Below are positions 6,706 through 18,557 of a DNA stretch of 64,000 nucleotides, piece by piece (positions within the stretch are counted from its first letter, which is position 1; each line of letters begins with the position of its first letter). The stretch lies in contig CAJSYJ010000001.1 of NCBI GenBank assembly GCA_910574205.1, positions 558,001 to 622,000 of the forward strand, in the 5' to 3' direction. The position numbers were made by a program, and so were the translations under genes. This DNA comes from Bacteroidales bacterium. Lineage in GTDB: Bacteria > Bacteroidota > Bacteroidia > Bacteroidales > Rikenellaceae. The notes below the pieces were generated by a model that saw nothing but the letters and a program-made list of their open reading frames with translations, did no database searches and had not been told where the DNA came from.

Positions 6706-9327
6706 ATGAACGGACTGAAACTTATTATGGCACTGACGCTGGCGACGATGCTCGCGGCGTCAGCGTCAGCCGCCGAAGACTACCGCCCGCGCGCAAACGA
6801 CTCGCAGACGGTCGTAGCGGGCAACGCACGCTTCACTGTGCTCACGCCGCGCATGATACGCATGGAGTGGAGCGAAGACGGCCGCTTCGAGGACAATGCC
6901 ACCTTCGGCATCGTCAACCGCGCATTCGACGACGTATCGTTCCGCAGCTCGGTTACCTCGTCGAAGGTAACCATACGCACCGATGCGCTCACGCTGACAT
7001 GGCGTCGCGGCGGCCGCTTCTCGGCCGACAACCTATCGGTCGAGTTCGCGATGAACGGCCGCAAGGTAGTATGGCGCCCCGGCATGGAGGACAAGGGCAA
7101 CCTGCAAGGCACCATGCGCACGCTCGACCGCACCGACGGCTGGAACCTCCACGAGACGTTCGACCCCGGCGTCGTATCGCGCGACGGCTGGGTCATCCTC
7201 GACGAGAGCACCCGCCCGATCATCGCCGACGACGACACCCGCTGGGGCGGGTGGGTCGCCGAACGCGGCGAGGGCGACCGCATCGACTGGTATATCATGG
7301 CATACGGCCACGACTACACCGCCGCCGTGACCGACTACATGCGCGTCGGCGGACGTCAGCCCCTGCCGCCCAAGTATGCCTTCGGCTACTGGTGGAGCCG
7401 CTACTGGCAATACTCCGACGACGAGCTGGTGCGGCTGGTCGAGCAGATACAGAGCCTCTCCATACCGATCGACGTTCTGATAGTCGACATGGAGTGGCAC
7501 GACACGTGGGGTCTGTCGAGCATCGACACCAAGCGCGACGAGTACGGCCAGCGCATCGGCTGGACGGGCTACACGTGGAAACGCGAGCTGTTCCCCTCGC
7601 CCGAGAACTTCATCCGCTGGGCGCACGGGCGCAACCTGAAAGTATCGCTCAATCTCCACCCGGCATCGGGCATACAGCCCTACGAGGCTGCCTACGACGA
7701 CTTCGCCGAGGACTACGGCTGGCAGAAAGCGGGCGAGCCCATACCGTTCCGCATATGCCAGCAGCAGTGGGCCGACAGCTACTTCAAGACCGTCCTGCAC
7801 CCGTTGCAGAGGCAGGGCGTCGACTTCTGGTGGCTCGACTGGCAGCAGTGGAAGCAGAGCAAGTATATGCCGTCGGTAAGCAATACGTTCTGGCTCAACC
7901 ACACCTTTTTCCGCGACAGCGAGCTCTCGTCCGACGAACGGCCTATGATCTATCATCGCTGGGGCGGACTGGGCTCGCACCGATACCAGACGGCATTCTC
8001 TGGCGACGTCTTCGCCACATGGGAGAGTCTGTCGTTCCTGCCCTACTTCACCTCGACCGCCTCTAACGTATGCTACGGCTACTGGGGTCACGACATCGGC
8101 GGACACATGCTGCCCGCAGGCGTCGAGACCACCGACGAGGAGCTGTTCACGCGCTGGCTGCAATACTCGGTCTTCACGCCGATATTCAAGACCCACAGCA
8201 CCAAGGACCGCAACATCGAACGCCGGCTGTGGGCCTTCGGCGAAAACATGTTCACGCTTCGCGACGCCGTGCGTCTTCGCTACACGCTCTCGCCATATAT
8301 CTATACGGCCGCGCGCCAGGCCTACGACACGGGCATCTCCATGTGCCGCCCGATGTATTACGCCTGCCCCGAGGATGAACGCGCCTACTCATATAAGGAG
8401 CAGCACATGTTCGGCGACGATATGATCGTCGCAGCCGTAGCCCGGCCTGCCGACACGGTAACAGGTCTTGCCGAACGCACCATATGGCTGCCCGAGGGCG
8501 AGTGGTACGACATGGCCACAGGCACGATGTACGACGGCGGCGAATACTGCATGCAGTACACGGTCGACGAGATACCGATGTTCGTCCGTGCCGGTGCCGT
8601 GATACCCATGGCAGCAGACGACATCTCCGATCTGCAACATATCGACGACAGGCTCGTGCTGACGGTCATCCCCGGCGACGGGGAGTCGGTATGCACGCTC
8701 TACGAGGACGACGGCCGCTCGAAAGATTACGCCGAACGCTACGCCGTCACGACCCTCCGCAAGCACTCGACGCCCGAGAGGACGACACTCGTCGTCGAGC
8801 CTCGCCGCGGCGCTTACGACGGCATGCCCGCAACGCGGCGCTACGAGATACGTCTCTTAGGCGTGTGTCCGCCCAGCAGCGTCACGGTCGACGGCCGCGA
8901 ATACAGCTACGACCGCTTCGCCGAGACGGGCGGTTGGACATACGACGGGCGCGAGACAGCCGTCCGCATATTCGTCGACGCCGCGCCGTGCGACCGCGAG
9001 CTTCGCGTGGAGTGCTCTTTCGATACGGATCGCAACCGCCGCGAGCTTCTCGACGGCTGCCGCGGCATGATAAAGCGCTTCGCAAGGCTGACCGACGAGT
9101 TCAAGGTGGTATACAACCGCTACGACCGTCTTGCGATGCTGCCCGAGGCCTATCTGAAAGTGTCGCAGTTTGGGTCGTTCATAACGGAGAATCCCGCAGA
9201 AATAACCCGCCATATCGACCAGTGCCGCCAAGCCATGCCCGAGATGCTGCGCGAGATAGAATCGCTCGATCTCGACCCCGGCTTCAAGCGCCGGATCGAG
9301 GCGCAGACCCGCATGTTCGTCGAGTAG
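6706..9327 (+). CDS. Glycoside hydrolase family 31 protein (alpha-glucosidase/alpha-xylosidase type), exported
   Basis: 873 aa with a signal peptide (residues 1-22, ending ASASAAED). After a galactose-mutarotase-like N domain comes the GH31 barrel: FGYWWSRYWQYSDDEL, VLIVDMEWH, and the nucleophile Asp at about residue 378 in DFWWLDWQQW. SGDVFATWESL holds the probable acid/base Asp, and GYWGHDIGGHM is a family signature. A beta-sandwich region and a 100-residue helical tail follow. The predicted role is hydrolysis of alpha-linked glucose or xylose from oligosaccharides in the periplasm. Linkage preference is not predictable. It appears to form a transcription unit with the GH3 gene in front. 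Confidence 0.93.
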   Translation: MNGLKLIMALTLATMLAASASAAEDYRPRANDSQTVVAGNARFTVLTPRMIRMEWSEDGRFEDNATFGIVNRAFDDVSFRSSVTSSKVTIRTDALTLTWRRGGRFSADNLSVEFAMNGRKVVWRPGMEDKGNLQGTMRTLDRTDGWNLHETFDPGVVSRDGWVILDESTRPIIADDDTRWGGWVAERGEGDRIDWYIMAYGHDYTAAVTDYMRVGGRQPLPPKYAFGYWWSRYWQYSDDELVRLVEQIQSLSIPIDVLIVDMEWHDTWGLSSIDTKRDEYGQRIGWTGYTWKRELFPSPENFIRWAHGRNLKVSLNLHPASGIQPYEAAYDDFAEDYGWQKAGEPIPFRICQQQWADSYFKTVLHPLQRQGVDFWWLDWQQWKQSKYMPSVSNTFWLNHTFFRDSELSSDERPMIYHRWGGLGSHRYQTAFSGDVFATWESLSFLPYFTSTASNVCYGYWGHDIGGHMLPAGVETTDEELFTRWLQYSVFTPIFKTHSTKDRNIERRLWAFGENMFTLRDAVRLRYTLSPYIYTAARQAYDTGISMCRPMYYACPEDERAYSYKEQHMFGDDMIVAAVARPADTVTGLAERTIWLPEGEWYDMATGTMYDGGEYCMQYTVDEIPMFVRAGAVIPMAADDISDLQHIDDRLVLTVIPGDGESVCTLYEDDGRSKDYAERYAVTTLRKHSTPERTTLVVEPRRGAYDGMPATRRYEIRLLGVCPPSSVTVDGREYSYDRFAETGGWTYDGRETAVRIFVDAAPCDRELRVECSFDTDRNRRELLDGCRGMIKRFARLTDEFKVVYNRYDRLAMLPEAYLKVSQFGSFITENPAEITRHIDQCRQAMPEMLREIESLDLDPGFKRRIEAQTRMFVE

Positions 9328-9459
9328 TTACAGGCCGTTATATAGGCCGCACCGACGGTCGCACGGCCTAATACGGATCGCTTATACGGGCATGGCGCCG
9401 GCACCGCCGCCCCGTCCGGCTGCATCGGGCAGATTGCCCCGACATATTGAGCCAAACAG

Positions 9460-9493
9460 ATTATCCCTGCCCGACTATTCGGGCAGGGATAAT
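9460..9493 (+). terminator. Inverted repeat downstream of the GH31 gene
   Basis: A perfect 14-bp stem (ATTATCCCTGCCCG with its complement) surrounds a 6-base loop. It has no long T-run, so it is either a weak terminator or an mRNA 3'-end stabiliser. Confidence 0.6.
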
Positions 9494-9920
9494 AGTTATG
9501 GCCGCTGTGCCCGTAACCCGCTCTTGGCATATACGCCGTCCGCTGCACTCCTTTTGCGCTACGTCTCCGCTCTTCGTCTTCGGCCTGCACTCTCCTCGGC
9601 TCAGTAGCCGCATATCGCTCCGCCGCCGCAGTGTGCGACATGACCTCTCCGCTACCGCCCCCCGCCCCTGCATCCGCCGCCGCACATACAACGCCCGCAT
9701 ACCGAAATACTCCCTATGGCCAAACGCACTGCACCCATACTCTGCAAACCCCTCTCTACGGTCGCATACCCTCGACACGGCCGGCACACCGGAACCGCAT
9801 GCCTAACGACTCCGCCGCATGGTCGTCCCACACAGCCGCCGCCCGCAACGACATAACCACCGCTACGACCAACGGCCGCACCGTAAACCGCCCCCGCAAC
9901 CGCATCCTCTGCCTGCCCAT

Positions 9921-13745: not shown

Positions 13746-13801
13746 AGCCCGCACGGCAAATACCTCCGCACGGCATATATCCGCTACCCCGGAACAAACA
13801 A

Positions 13802-13823
13802 CGGGAGGCCTATCGGCCTCCCG
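13802..13823 (-). terminator. Terminator hairpin between convergent gpmA and the DUF4465-like gene
   Basis: A perfect 9-bp stem CGGGAGGCC/GGCCTCCCG encloses a 4-base loop. On the minus strand it is followed by TTGTTTGTT, so it serves the minus-strand unit best, but it may act in both directions. Confidence 0.75.
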
Positions 13824-13856
13824 CACTCACTTCAATTCAAATAAACTCACGAAACA

Positions 13857-15683
13857 TCACTCCGTCGTCATCCTATTTACCTCGATATTGTCTATGGCAC
13901 AGTATGTAGGCGTGTTGAGTCCGTAATCTCCCACGTCGCTGCCCTCGAAATCGATCATTACCTTGTGAACGCGTCCCAGCGTCGAGAGATCGACTTTGTT
14001 CCACCCCTCGACGGCACCGGCCGAGCCGGCCGTGCGGAAGTCGGCCAGATAGTGTTCTACCCGGCCCGTCTCGCTGCCCGAGGCGTCGATACCCGTGAAC
14101 GTCACGCGGAACCAGCCCTTGTTGTCGTATGTAAGCGGCTCGGAGAGGCTGCTGCCCTCGGTCACGGCTTTATATACATAGGTGGTGTTGCACACGTATA
14201 ACGACACGATCATATCCTCGCGCCCCTCGGCGGCGAATGCTATCGACGAACGCGTGTCGGTGCTGTACGGGCTGCCGTCGTCGTAGCCGTAGGCGATAGC
14301 GAATGTCGACGAGCCGCCGAAGCCGCCCTTGCCCGTATCCGCATCCTTGCAGTATACGCTGCACTGGTTGGTATAGTCGGCCGCAGCCATGTCGTTCCAC
14401 TGCGATATGGCCATGCCGCCGCCGTAAAAGCTCTTGTATGTGGTCTGCGTAACCCACTGGTCATAGTAGTCGTTGATGCCGAATACCAGATCGGTCGCCG
14501 CATCGTGGTAGGCGACGAACTGGTCGCCCTCGTATTTTACATTGTCCTTTTCGGCATTATAGAGGTTGGCGCCGTAAGATGTCTGGCCGGCCAGATACTT
14601 CGCCTCGACGCCCTCGAAGTCGAGCACGGCCGTCGTGTAGGGCTCGATCTCGCGCAGCTGCACAGTGCGCGTATATATGCTGCCGGCCTCGAAAGCCTTC
14701 GAAGCGCGGAATGCGAAGCGCTGCGAACCCTCGGTCGTGAATACCGTTATCGTGTTCGCGTCGGTCGCGGTAAGGTCTACCGGATTGACGAACAGATACA
14801 CCGTCGTCGAGCCGTAGCGCGCCGTCTCGACACCGGTCTGCGACTCGGCGCCGACCCTCGACGAGCTCTTGCCGTCGACCACGGCGCCCGAGGCGTCGAC
14901 GGTCTTGCCCGCCGTCAGCGTGCCCGAGGTCACGTCGAGCGTAAAGTCGCCCGCCAAAGGCTGTCCGTCGCCCGAGGCGAGGCTCACGCCCGTGATCGTC
15001 ACGGCATCGGCGGTATAGTTGTCGACCTTGATCTTCAACACGGCGAACGCATGGTCGAAGTCGAACATCAGCCTCTCCTCCACCACCGCCTTGTCGGCGG
15101 CATCGGCCGGCATCGCAATCCTCGCCGAGGCATACACCAGATCATACTCGCCGAAGTGCGACGTGTCGTCGCTGCCCGACATCTTCTGCGACGAAGGCAG
15201 CGTGAAGGGCACGGCCGTGGGTCTCGTCGCGGCCTTGGCAGCCTCGCGCCACGGGTAGTACATATGGAAAACGAGCTCGGGCGAAGCGGTGTTCCAGCCC
15301 CAGCGGCCGGTGTACTCGGGCGTGTCGCCGGCATAACGCGGCGATATGCCGAACACGGCCGCCGGCGTCCCGGCACCCGAAGCCACCGTCATGCAGACGT
15401 TGCTCACGCCTTTCGTGTAGAACATCTTATCGGGCAGCGCCGACATGGTCCACTCGTAGTAGGCCTCCGACGAGAATATACCCAGCTCGTCGCCCTCGCT
15501 CCACAGCACGTTGTTCTTCAAGAAGTCGGTGCGCGTAGCCGACTGCCCGCCCTCGAATGTGATGTTCAGCGGAACGACCCTTTCGTCGGCACGTCCCGCC
15601 TCGGGCAGGTAATCGTTATCCTTCGTACAGCCGCCGAGCAGCACCGCCGCCGACAGCATAGCCGATATTATATGCAGTTTCAT
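13857..15683 (-). CDS. Surface lipoprotein: fimbrillin-like N-terminal part plus DUF4465-like C-terminal domain
   Basis: 608 aa. A lipoprotein signal ends AAVLLGGCTKD. Residues about 35-345 resemble fimbrillin/Mfa-type proteins (ATRTDF, WSEGDELGIFS, DFDHAFAVLKIKV). Residues about 365-605 match the DUF4465 pattern: SFYGGGMAISQWND, CSVYCKDADTG, FGGSSTFAIAYGYDDG, VSLYVCNTTYVYKAV, VEHYLADFR and the end GLNTPTYCAIDNIEV. DUF4465 proteins occur in Bacteroidota surface loci, including, from memory, cobamide uptake loci. It starts 28 bases after the 771-aa lipoprotein gene, in the same cobalamin-riboswitch unit, so a cobamide-related surface binding role is inferred. No enzyme residues are seen. Confidence 0.78.
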   Translation of the reverse strand: MKLHIISAMLSAAVLLGGCTKDNDYLPEAGRADERVVPLNITFEGGQSATRTDFLKNNVLWSEGDELGIFSSEAYYEWTMSALPDKMFYTKGVSNVCMTVASGAGTPAAVFGISPRYAGDTPEYTGRWGWNTASPELVFHMYYPWREAAKAATRPTAVPFTLPSSQKMSGSDDTSHFGEYDLVYASARIAMPADAADKAVVEERLMFDFDHAFAVLKIKVDNYTADAVTITGVSLASGDGQPLAGDFTLDVTSGTLTAGKTVDASGAVVDGKSSSRVGAESQTGVETARYGSTTVYLFVNPVDLTATDANTITVFTTEGSQRFAFRASKAFEAGSIYTRTVQLREIEPYTTAVLDFEGVEAKYLAGQTSYGANLYNAEKDNVKYEGDQFVAYHDAATDLVFGINDYYDQWVTQTTYKSFYGGGMAISQWNDMAAADYTNQCSVYCKDADTGKGGFGGSSTFAIAYGYDDGSPYSTDTRSSIAFAAEGREDMIVSLYVCNTTYVYKAVTEGSSLSEPLTYDNKGWFRVTFTGIDASGSETGRVEHYLADFRTAGSAGAVEGWNKVDLSTLGRVHKVMIDFEGSDVGDYGLNTPTYCAIDNIEVNRMTTE

Positions 15684-15711
15684 ATTGCCGTATCAGTTTG
15701 TATGTTTGAAA

Positions 15712-18027
15712 TTAGAATGATGATCCGTTATCCCAGCCGCCTATGCCGCTCAATGCCGCAGGCATTACCACGGGCGTGAGCGACGATGCGCCCGTAATCT
15801 CGGTCGATATCTCGCCGAACATGGGCATCCTGCTGTCTATCGCGAAGACGGGATTGTATACCTTGATGAAGTCTACGGCCAGAAGCTGCACGGGGTTGCC
15901 CTCGCTGTCGACCGCCCACGATATGTCGAATTTGTTGGCGCTCCTGGTATCCTCGTCGCCCCATACCGTAGTGTTGTAGTCGGCCGTCAGCACGTCGACA
16001 TAGCCGTATTCGCAGCCTGGGTTAGGCTCGTACATCGTCTCCAACGGCAGCTTCGTACCGGTAACGGTCATCTCGGTCGCCTCGTTCTCGCGCGGCCACC
16101 ACGTAGCGGGCTTGTCGACGCCGTTGAAGCCCACGCGGCCGCTGCCGCCCTTGTTGTCCGTCCAGCCGATGCAGTTGTTGTCGGCATCCTTGGTATATGT
16201 CAGTGAGTAGCCGTGCACCGTGGCGGGATCGTCGTACAATCCGCCCTTCAACTCGTACCATTCGTCGTCGGCCAGGCCGTTGCCGTTGGCGTCGTATGAG
16301 ACCATGACCGCACCCGGTTCTACGGCCGTAGCTATCGGGTTGCCGCTGATGACGAAGTCGATGCCGGGCAGGTTGACCACCGTATGGTCGAATTTGAATA
16401 CGAGCGATCCGCCGAACATGCCCAGCGAGATCATGCCGCCGCGGCGCGAGCCCACCAAAGCCTCGGCCGACGATTGCAGATAGAAGTTCTGCACCGAACC
16501 GTACTGGCCGGGAGCGGGTCGAAATTCGATGATCCGAGAGATATATTTCGACGACGAGGCAGACAAGCCCCTTACGGGCAGCAGCGTCAGCTTGTCTCCG
16601 GCGTCGGTTATTGTCGCTATCTTGCCGTAGTCGAGCGCCTGAGCCTCGACACCGACTTTAAGCTGGTCGATCGTACCGCAGTTGATGAGCTTCACCGAAT
16701 CGTATTGCAGCTCGAAGAGCGATACATGCGACTCCTTGCCGATGAAGCAGTAACCGCACTTGGGACGCAGCGAGGCGGCATAATCGCCACCCAGAACCAG
16801 CGTCGCATCGCGCAGATCGATATTGCCGCCCGACGTGAATGAAAAGCCGCTGCCGATGTTCAGATTGACCGTACCAGAATACGTCGTCTTAGAGGAGCCT
16901 ATGTTGACCTGACCCGAACCGCCCTGCATGAAGTTGAGCGTTATGCTCGGCACGGCCGCAGCGTCGAGCTCCGCCAGCGATATGCTGCAATACGAGTTCT
17001 GCGGCTCGGCCACATCGAATACCGCCTCGAACGGCTCGGCCGCCGACGTGTACCTGGGCAGGACGTTGCGGCACAGATCGTCGATCTTCTTGCCGTCCGC
17101 CGCCGCATAGCTTGCCCTTACACGCTTCGATATCGTGACCGGGATATTGCCCTCGGTCACGGCTATGACCGATACGCTGCCTTCGTATTCGACATCGAGG
17201 CCTACCCACGGTGCGGTCAGGTAGACCTTGCCCGCCGAGAGATTTATCTCGGCCGTCCAGCCGTAGGGAGCCGCCACGACAGCCGAGAGGATATTCTCGG
17301 CCGTGATACCCAGCTGCCGGCTGTCGCCGTAGTACGATTCGCAGTCGCCCTGGTCGACCCACGCTATCGCGGCGTCGGTAAGTTTGGGCAGCGCGAGCAC
17401 CGTACCGTTTTGCAGCGTCACGACGACCCGATCGTCCTTGTCCACGACCGAGCTTATGGCACCTTCGTCCGACGTCTGGCCCGACGCCTCGATCCTGTTG
17501 CCGTCGGCATCCGTCAGCCACTGCCCGTCGACGGTCCAGTAATACTTGCCGTCGTCGTCCTTCGCGGCACCAATCACGGGCGTGTGTCCCGCAGCGCCTT
17601 TGTCGCCCTGAGCCGCCACCTTTTCGCCGTCGGCACCGGTCAGCCACTCGCCGTCGACAGTCCAGTAATAGACCCCGTCGGCATCCTGCCTTACGCCGAC
17701 AACGGGCGTGCGGCCGGCCTCTCCCGGCTCGCCCTTGTCGCCGTCGCGGCCGTTGGTCAGCGTTATTACGGAGCCGTCGCTCATGGTCAGCTCGTAGCCC
17801 TCGGCCGTCTGCTCGACGCTCATAACCACCTTGCCCTGGCAGAGTGCGTCGACGCACTGGCCTATCGACTCTATCTGAGAGTTGACAGTCTTTACCGAAG
17901 CCTCGATCTTGGCGACGCGCTCGGCCAGGTCCTCGACCCTCTGCCGCAAATCGCTGTCGTCGTACTCGCACGCCGCAACTGCGGCGGCACAAGCGAGCAT
18001 AGTCAAAAGTTTTCTCATCATGTACAT
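15712..18027 (-). CDS. Large surface lipoprotein with coiled coil, collagen-like segment and paired YYWTVDG repeats, under cobalamin riboswitch
   Basis: 771 aa. A lipoprotein signal ends AAAVAACEYDD. A short coiled coil follows (DLRQRVEDLAERVAKIEASV, residues 26-45; DUF4988-like), then a GxxGxxG collagen-like stretch (GRDGDKGEPGEAG). Next are two copies of a motif of the form TPVxGxxxDxDGxYYWTVDGxWLTxADG (near residues 108 and 150). The long remainder is beta-rich and ends in a domain with MVSYDANGNGLADDEWYEL. The start could be any of the Met codons at 18027, 18021 or 18018. It is the first gene behind the cobalamin riboswitch, so it is probably made when cobamides are scarce. Function unknown; cobamide capture is an inference from regulation. 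Confidence 0.75.
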   Translation of the reverse strand: MYMMRKLLTMLACAAAVAACEYDDSDLRQRVEDLAERVAKIEASVKTVNSQIESIGQCVDALCQGKVVMSVEQTAEGYELTMSDGSVITLTNGRDGDKGEPGEAGRTPVVGVRQDADGVYYWTVDGEWLTGADGEKVAAQGDKGAAGHTPVIGAAKDDDGKYYWTVDGQWLTDADGNRIEASGQTSDEGAISSVVDKDDRVVVTLQNGTVLALPKLTDAAIAWVDQGDCESYYGDSRQLGITAENILSAVVAAPYGWTAEINLSAGKVYLTAPWVGLDVEYEGSVSVIAVTEGNIPVTISKRVRASYAAADGKKIDDLCRNVLPRYTSAAEPFEAVFDVAEPQNSYCSISLAELDAAAVPSITLNFMQGGSGQVNIGSSKTTYSGTVNLNIGSGFSFTSGGNIDLRDATLVLGGDYAASLRPKCGYCFIGKESHVSLFELQYDSVKLINCGTIDQLKVGVEAQALDYGKIATITDAGDKLTLLPVRGLSASSSKYISRIIEFRPAPGQYGSVQNFYLQSSAEALVGSRRGGMISLGMFGGSLVFKFDHTVVNLPGIDFVISGNPIATAVEPGAVMVSYDANGNGLADDEWYELKGGLYDDPATVHGYSLTYTKDADNNCIGWTDNKGGSGRVGFNGVDKPATWWPRENEATEMTVTGTKLPLETMYEPNPGCEYGYVDVLTADYNTTVWGDEDTRSANKFDISWAVDSEGNPVQLLAVDFIKVYNPVFAIDSRMPMFGEISTEITGASSLTPVVMPAALSGIGGWDNGSSF

Positions 18028-18159
18028 TTAAGTTAATAAAAATAAATAGCATATACACAACGAGATCGCACCGCTCCGACGGCCGACGCAGGCATGACGG
18101 CCGCAGGCCGGCTCCGCGCACATATCCGATATGACGACTAAGATACACTCCAAGTCTCA

Positions 18160-18376
18160 GACCTCCCGTTCTCCGCAGGCGGATCTCGTTACAAAACGCT
18201 TCGGCAGGTCTTCTGACTCGTTCCGTTTACGACGCCTTCCCAACCCTAAACGTGTCAGTGGCAAAAGAGTGTCGTAACATTCCTCGAAGTGGAACTTACA
18301 GCAGCGGGAACTGTTCGGGATTCTCACCCGATTCCCATTTAATCTCATGCAGGCTGTCGCCTGCGAGAACCTTAGC
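18160..18376 (-). ncRNA. Cobalamin (adenosylcobalamin) riboswitch
   Basis: Read on the minus strand the element contains the main conserved parts of the class in order: a GGGAATCGGGTGAGAATCCC segment, the ACAGTTCCCGCTGCTGTAAG core, the B12-box GCCACTG (18256-18262), a GGGAAGGC segment, and the 3' block GTCAGAAGACCTGCC ending at 18203. Downstream, AGGTCT (18159-18164) can pair with AGACCT of that 3' block (18206-18211), a possible expression platform. A -7 promoter box lies directly upstream. It governs the two lipoprotein genes at 15712-18027 and 13857-15683. Confidence 0.95.
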
Positions 18377-18381
18377 GGAGA

Positions 18382-18389
18382 CAAAGGTA
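18382..18389 (-). promoter_or_regulatory. -7 promoter box for the cobalamin-riboswitch transcript
   Basis: TACCTTTG on the minus strand matches TAnnTTTG and lies just before the riboswitch 5' stem, so transcription would start at the aptamer edge. Confidence 0.75.
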
Positions 18390-18480
18390 GCAATTATTCG
18401 CAATCGCACATCCTGCCGGCATGACTTTTTTTGCCTCGCACCCGAAAAAAAGTCCCGCCGGCAAAACCCTGAAAACGGCA

Positions 18481-18507
18481 ACCCCTGCCGAAAATTCCGG
18501 CAGGGGT
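18481..18507 (-). terminator. Terminator after the Oar-like receptor gene
   Basis: A perfect 10-bp stem ACCCCTGCCG/CGGCAGGGGT encloses a 7-base loop, followed on the minus strand by TGCCGTTTTC. It separates the receptor gene from the riboswitch unit, which therefore has its own promoter. Confidence 0.75.
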
Positions 18508-18557
18508 CGATCCGACATCGCTGCGAGGAGCCGCAGCGAGAGATATATCCTCAACGC

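Follow-up and report, generated by a model that had tools for sequence, protein, structure and literature searches.

A two-gene unit behind a cobalamin riboswitch in a Rikenellaceae genome: probable capture of cobamides by BtuH- and DUF4465-type lipoproteins encoded apart from BtuB

Cobalamin riboswitches of Bacteroides repress uptake genes in the presence of B12 (PMC8941943, PMC12751083). A locus in a Bacteroidales bacterium of the family Rikenellaceae (assembly GCA_910574205.1) raises the question of what purpose such a riboswitch might serve when the two genes behind it include neither btuB nor btuG. The locus lies in a stretch of 64,000 nucleotides (contig CAJSYJ010000001.1, positions 558,001 to 622,000), hereafter called the window. 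Its two open reading frames, ORF1 and ORF2, were proposed in a first-pass annotation to encode either a new kind of cobamide-capture lipoprotein or an accessory to a distant transporter. We consider it probable, from sequence comparisons, that the unit is a stand-alone cobamide trap supplying BtuB/BtuG importers that are predicted to be encoded at other places in the genome. Everything in this reading beyond the domain matches is inferred. The unit comprises the following features, given in window coordinates.

18186 to 18389, minus strand: cobalamin riboswitch aptamer (RF00174)
18382 to 18389, minus strand: promoter element TACCTTTG of the Bacteroidetes -7 type, recognized from the sequence at the 5' edge of the riboswitch
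15712 to 18027, minus strand: ORF1, a predicted lipoprotein of 771 amino acids with a DUF4988 stalk, an immunoglobulin-like (Ig-like) domain, a beta-helix and a BtuH domain
17386 to 17949, minus strand: DUF4988 part of ORF1 (residues 27-214), a helix followed by beta modules
15772 to 16572, minus strand: BtuH domain of ORF1 (residues 486-752)
13857 to 15683, minus strand: ORF2, a predicted lipoprotein of 608 amino acids with a fimbrillin module and DUF4465
14640 to 15575, minus strand: fimbrillin-like module of ORF2 (residues 37-348; Mfa_like_1)
13872 to 14639, minus strand: DUF4465 domain of ORF2 (residues 349-604), including the predicted contact residues

The riboswitch reported by the first-pass annotation is borne out by a covariance match to RF00174 at 18389-18186, which covers the full model (1-189) and scores 95.4 bits against a gathering threshold of 31.5 (E 1.8e-22). 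This is the sole Rfam match at gathering threshold in the whole window, and our own model R1, which contains the aptamer, scores 181.1 bits at the same place. The element TACCTTTG, which we take to be a Bacteroidetes -7 element (consensus TAnnTTTG), agrees with the earlier proposal that the unit has its own promoter, and TTTG occupies the matching position in 12 of 14 aligned riboswitches. Both ORFs lie on the riboswitch strand and are separated by only 28 bp. By eye, each begins with a lipoprotein-type signal that ends in a cysteine followed by acidic residues (AAVAAC-EYDDSD in ORF1 and LLGGC-TKDND in ORF2), as expected of the surface lipoproteins that both are predicted to be. This cysteine stands at the same place in those relatives that have an N-terminus. 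ORF1 probably starts at 18018 and encodes 768 amino acids, because alignments with its homologues begin at its fourth residue.

The clearest indication of cobamide binding comes from ORF2, whose earlier description as a fimbrillin-DUF4465 protein holds. Both PF13149 (Mfa_like_1) and PF14717 (DUF4465) match above their Pfam cut-offs, with a fimbrillin fold and a jellyroll fold, respectively. DUF4465 is the domain of the BtuJ proteins, and B12 binding has been reported for eight divergent DUF4465 proteins (PMC13398666). The B12 contacts of BtuJ2, Tyr134, Tyr199, Asn291, Thr292 and Tyr295 (PMC12751083), correspond to Y437, Y502, N590, T591 and Y594 of ORF2. All five are identical, which makes ORF2 a strong cobamide-binder candidate. 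The contact classes of BtuJ-type proteins are thus all kept: the AB-loop tyrosine, the DE-helix tyrosine and the NT..Y of the HI loop. Among 14 aligned sequences, four of these contacts are invariant and the Y437 position is tyrosine in 11.

The C-terminus of ORF1 is a BtuH domain both by sequence and by fold. BtuH and DUF4465/BtuJ domains bind cobalamin (PMC8941943, PMC12751083, PMC13398666), and the affinity of BtuH2 for B12 has been given as a dissociation constant from picomolar (PMC8941943) to about 20 nM (PMC12751083). Since both C-terminal domains match solved B12 binders, we rejected the idea of a new B12-binding fold, and the notion of a new kind of capture lipoprotein is not supported at the level of domains; what is new is the architecture and the lack of BtuB in the unit. 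The N-terminal part of ORF1 matches PF16378 (DUF4988) with 119 bits against a cut-off of 30. Its prior description as coiled-coil and collagen-like was right in part, in that a helix is predicted at residues 25-63, but Pfam finds no collagen match in ORF1 itself, although its homologues P0002 and P0003 do have one.

If the pair captures cobamides, then an importer must be sought outside the unit. Neither ORF is BtuB, in agreement with the earlier statement that the unit has no btuB, and a BtuB query of the whole source genome (2.33 Mb in 8 contigs, 99.96% complete) finds two loci, A and B, together with one weak match on contig C4 (E 1.5e-7, 30% identity over part of the length), none of them near the window. 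Loci A and B lie on a different contig from the window and each has its own riboswitch. Locus A is ordered riboswitch, DUF4465 (BtuJ), DUF5074 propeller (BtuG), PKD-BtuH, Recep_L protein, BtuB and BtuF, with a FecCD permease next; locus B is ordered riboswitch, PKD-BtuH, BtuG and BtuB. Both BtuB proteins match TIGR01779 below its cut-off, and their naming therefore rests also on the neighboring genes. Because the unit carries no BtuB, any catch would have to reach BtuB/BtuG of loci A and B or some other channel, and these two riboswitch-led loci lend support to the earlier suggestion of an accessory to a distant transporter. The genome has two methylmalonyl-CoA mutase genes, whereas the methionine synthase B12 domain (PF02965) was not found in it and was found in 7 of 14 control genomes, so that its demand for cobamide may come from enzymes other than methionine synthase. 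A cobamide-using enzyme and an importer are thus likely present, but outside the unit.

Several further features of this genome were observed. Locus A otherwise resembles a btu operon of Bacteroides thetaiotaomicron, and its Recep_L-domain lipoprotein (L008:6405-8795) lies between BtuH and BtuB. The window unit and loci A and B account for three of the four cobalamin riboswitches; the fourth (L010:14748-14940) lies ahead of a gene that was identified by eye as encoding an anaerobic ribonucleotide reductase (NrdD). A third DUF4465 gene (L011, about 9229-9732; C2:357228-357731) lies between genes that by eye resemble gyrA and ftsK, and its 18-kb stretch contains no riboswitch. DUF4988 has a single match in the genome.

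We then asked whether BtuH domains in other genomes keep similar company. A scan of GTDB contigs yielded 372 confirmed BtuH loci, the best 80 of which were kept. A riboswitch accompanies 66 of these 80, and in 65 cases it lies upstream on the same strand. BtuB is present in 53, BtuG in 56 and DUF4465 in 30, whereas 8 have neither a riboswitch nor BtuB. In total, 76 riboswitches were found in 1.42 Mb, compared to the approximately 2.4 expected at the density of the source genome. The neighborhoods of homologues, which the first-pass annotation had proposed to survey, thus did not refute a cobamide role. BtuB was not found in 27 of the kept loci, 19 of which have a riboswitch. Units of riboswitch, BtuH and DUF4465 that lie amid other genes, with no BtuB found in the stretch, occur in L043 (Rikenellaceae), L094 (Prevotellaceae) and L105 (Tannerella sp.); L061 and L101 have a similar appearance, although they sit at contig ends. 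No riboswitch was found in the control loci that carry DUF4988 only (L033, L040 and L041), nor in the wider stretches L123 and L124 that contain L033 and L041. Among 25 short BtuH stretches of the genus, 14 have a riboswitch (one a weak, cut match), and none was found within about 1.5 kb in the other 11.

The same survey revealed other arrangements of these domains. BtuH and DUF4465 are fused in a single protein within a cobalamin-riboswitch unit in L056:1547-3448 and L065:9926-11665 (Prevotellaceae, Prevotella sp.), and such fusions suggest joint action of the two binders. In L049, DUF4988 lies ahead of DUF4465, and in L050, DUF4988 and PKD lie ahead of BtuH, with a riboswitch before each. 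A match to residues 4-752 had made L049 look like a complete DUF4988-BtuH fusion. We rejected this because the locus encodes two separate proteins on either side of a riboswitch, and DUF4988 is joined there to DUF4465 instead of BtuH. In L066 and L093, the DUF4465 partner of BtuH has about 2,065 residues. Proteins of this size, with DUF4465 near residues 1,850-2,020, are encoded at L066:3767-9964, L093:3755-9964 and L047:2-6196, and a riboswitch lies directly upstream of the gene in L066 and L093 and directly after it in L047. Finally, the riboswitch-BtuH gene of L105 is followed by a gene (L105:4411-5466) whose DUF4465 product bears a type IX secretion tail (PF18962); this putative cobamide binder may thus leave the cell by a different secretion route.

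Additional features flank the unit and bear on its boundaries.

18479 to 18509, minus strand: 14-bp hairpin that separates the riboswitch from the Oar-like gene, a possible terminator with a weak T run
13801 to 13824, minus strand: terminator-like hairpin 3' of ORF2, a 10-bp stem followed by TGTTTGTT
18558 to about 21653, upstream of the riboswitch: Oar-like TonB-dependent receptor gene, PF25183 barrel type

Compared to shuffled sequences, the hairpin at 18509-18479 has a minimum free energy of -30.4 kcal/mol (z -2.91) and that at 13824-13801 has one of -27.3 (z -4.1). A GC-rich hairpin is visible by eye at the place of the former in G165, the only other one among 180 genomes of the genus with both full-length ORFs. 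Because its T run is broken, the term "terminator" for the 18509-18479 hairpin is an inference, and it is absent from the output of the terminator scan. That scan found 6 terminators compared to 7.0 expected from shuffles, which is no excess, and a promoter scan found 7 compared to 3.8 expected; the scan is uninformative by itself. With this putative terminator between them, the unit appears separate from the Oar-like gene, as was originally described. Between the aptamer and the start codon lies a leader of about 160 nt (18185-18028). In the fold of 18375-18010 (z -2.5), the 3' strand of the aptamer, including AGACCTGCCG, pairs with CGGGAGGTCT downstream, a pairing that is a possible switching helix; the G165 leader, read by eye, has a partly similar one.

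We propose that the unit would function as follows. At low intracellular cobamide the unit would stay on under its riboswitch, by analogy with Bacteroides. Both lipoproteins would be exported to the cell surface, and perhaps also to vesicles, like BtuJ in B. thetaiotaomicron. The stalks (DUF4988 and beta-helix in ORF1, fimbrillin in ORF2) would keep the B12 domains distant from the membrane, and captured cobamide would be handed to BtuG/BtuB produced from the other loci. Plentiful cobamide would shut the unit off.

Several observations weigh against this proposal. Eight B12 contacts of BtuH2 given in PMC8941943 were compared (Q333, N399, F401, H476, Y510, W511, W577 and L578), and only two of the eight are identical in ORF1 by multiple alignment, or three by pairwise alignment, whereas the minimum among 87 other BtuH domains in the multiple alignment is three of eight. 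F401, H476, W577 and L578 are replaced, and the loop of residues 510/511 is short, with Y510 corresponding to Y666 in the pairwise alignment and to a gap in the multiple alignment. Control in the OFF direction is borrowed from other Bacteroides cobalamin riboswitches, and the expression platform may act as a terminator or in another way. Full-length ORF1 is present in only 2 of 268 genomes of the family, which leaves few cases for linkage statistics on precisely this architecture. In both genomes that carry the pair, moreover, the Oar-like gene lies upstream, and it may have a role.

The diverged pocket gives some credit to the view that the pair act at the surface under B12 control as adhesins or bind some different ligand, in which case the BtuH fold was kept while its pocket drifted and the fimbrillin and beta-helix parts are the functional ones. 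The N-terminal modules are indeed of adhesin type, and toward P0002-P0006 the Ig-like (65-69% identity) and DUF4988 (61-68%) parts of ORF1 are conserved about as well as BtuH (64-67%). However, BtuH is more conserved than the beta-helix (51-55%), the two retained contacts, Q333 and N399, are the only ones that are invariant in all 87 other BtuH domains, and ORF2 keeps all five DUF4465 contacts. We consider this view unlikely. ORF1, with its BtuH fold and contacts on the phosphate and ribose sides, could favor a different cobamide or show weak binding. It is also conceivable that the pair mainly hoards cobamide or denies it to competitors, on the surface or on vesicles, rather than feeding the cell. 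BtuJ proteins are enriched on the vesicles that B. thetaiotaomicron forms (PMC12751083), units in which no importer gene was found are recurrent, and the DUF4465 partner in L105 has its type IX secretion tail. Yet B. thetaiotaomicron cells use vesicle-bound cobalamin, BtuJ being a vesicle-borne binder that delivers it to them (PMC12751083), and BtuH2 promotes uptake by its own cell (PMC8941943), such that hoarding seems highly improbable to us.

The remaining alternative is that the Oar-like receptor is the partner channel, and that together with the pair it makes up a dedicated importer of cobamides that does not need BtuB. The order in G165 matches that of the window (Oar, 76% identity; riboswitch; ORF1, 60%; ORF2, 66%), while none of the 8 other proteins of the window that were compared has a match in the 19.9-kb G165 stretch, so these farther genes differ. 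Against this, 101 of the 180 genomes of the genus have relatives of the Oar-like protein (E <= 1e-150) and 2 have the pair, and among 12 Oar loci examined a riboswitch lies within the stretch only in the two that have the pair. A strong hairpin also separates the receptor gene from the riboswitch, and its PF25183 barrel has no match to the TonB-B12 model TIGR01779, which upholds the earlier view that the nearest TonB receptor is not BtuB-like. We rejected the receptor as a member of the unit as a leading idea, given its distribution and its place behind the hairpin, and retain it as a very unlikely rival because the linkage holds in both pair-bearing genomes. The nearest Oar relative that lacks the pair, in G127, is about 5.5 kb away from an opposite-strand gene that was recognized by eye as BtuB-like (L144, G127:C11:33000-52000).

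A stand-alone trap that supplies importers in trans thus remains our preferred reading. On a broader and more tentative level, which we regard as possible though doubtful, such units may be free-standing cobamide-capture systems of Bacteroidales: riboswitch-run pairs of BtuH and BtuJ-type traps on borrowed adhesin stalks, relaying across loci to importers elsewhere (or on vesicles), with the altered BtuH pocket of this unit tuned to non-cobalamin cobamides. Abellon-Ruiz et al. 2023 (PMC10404256) left open whether extra B12-binding lipoproteins serve a transporter of another locus. A two-binder unit without its own BtuB is a natural test of such cross-locus supply, since it could feed BtuB only in trans. 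It also displays B12-binding domains swapped onto adhesin-type stalks, and two genes so far described by DUF or fimbrillin domains alone would gain a testable cobamide role.

Close relatives of the pair are scarce. Full-length relatives of ORF1 among the matches listed are P0001-P0008, with P0006 partial, and those of ORF2 are P0121-P0133 (coverage 91-100%), with P0121 being the window's own protein cluster; P0006 and P0124 come from Alistipes sp., which suggests this genus for the source genome. Both full-length ORFs are found in the same 2 of 180 genomes of the genus, the source genome and G165. In searches of the open-licence literature, judged mostly by titles and the starts of abstracts, no report of the unit was found, including among papers on Alistipes, cobalamin riboswitches, BtuB or lipoproteins. 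They likewise yielded no match for DUF4465 together with fimbrillin, and DUF4988 turned up in a single paper, within an iron-regulation table.

How, then, does the unit compare with known systems? Both binder families and their pairing are already published, in that the gene for BtuH2 (BT_1956) of B. thetaiotaomicron adjoins a BtuJ gene (BT_1957). Putnam 2022 (PMC8941943) reports various N-terminal domains for btuH genes and assigns more than 80%, though not all, of btuH homologues to btuB operons; btuH genes that stand apart from btuB are thus already known in bulk. Like BtuH2 and the BtuH domain of BtuG1 (BT_1490), ORF1 is a predicted lipoprotein with a C-terminal B12-binding-type domain (7biz, 8blw) and a cobalamin riboswitch. 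However, BtuH2 has PKD/Ig stalks, BtuG1 has a propeller and both belong to btuB loci, whereas ORF1 has its DUF4988, Ig-like and beta-helix stalk, lies in a unit without btuB and has most BtuH2 contacts changed. ORF2 shares with BtuJ1 and BtuJ2 (BT_1491 and BT_1957) the DUF4465 jellyroll, the NTPxY loop, the helix tyrosine and the riboswitch, and with BtuJ2 also the BtuH neighbor, but its DUF4465 is fused behind a fimbrillin module and no btuB accompanies it. Locus A shares with the window unit its riboswitch class and both binder domains, but it includes importer genes, a plain DUF4465 and a PKD-type BtuH. Similar in layout are L043, L094 and L105, whose surrounding genes appear unrelated by eye; these lack the DUF4988 and fimbrillin stalks, and L043 has the reverse gene order. 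As far as the literature searched shows, what is new is the use of DUF4988/beta-helix and fimbrillin stalks, the BtuH-DUF4465 fusions and the recurrence of paired units without BtuB.
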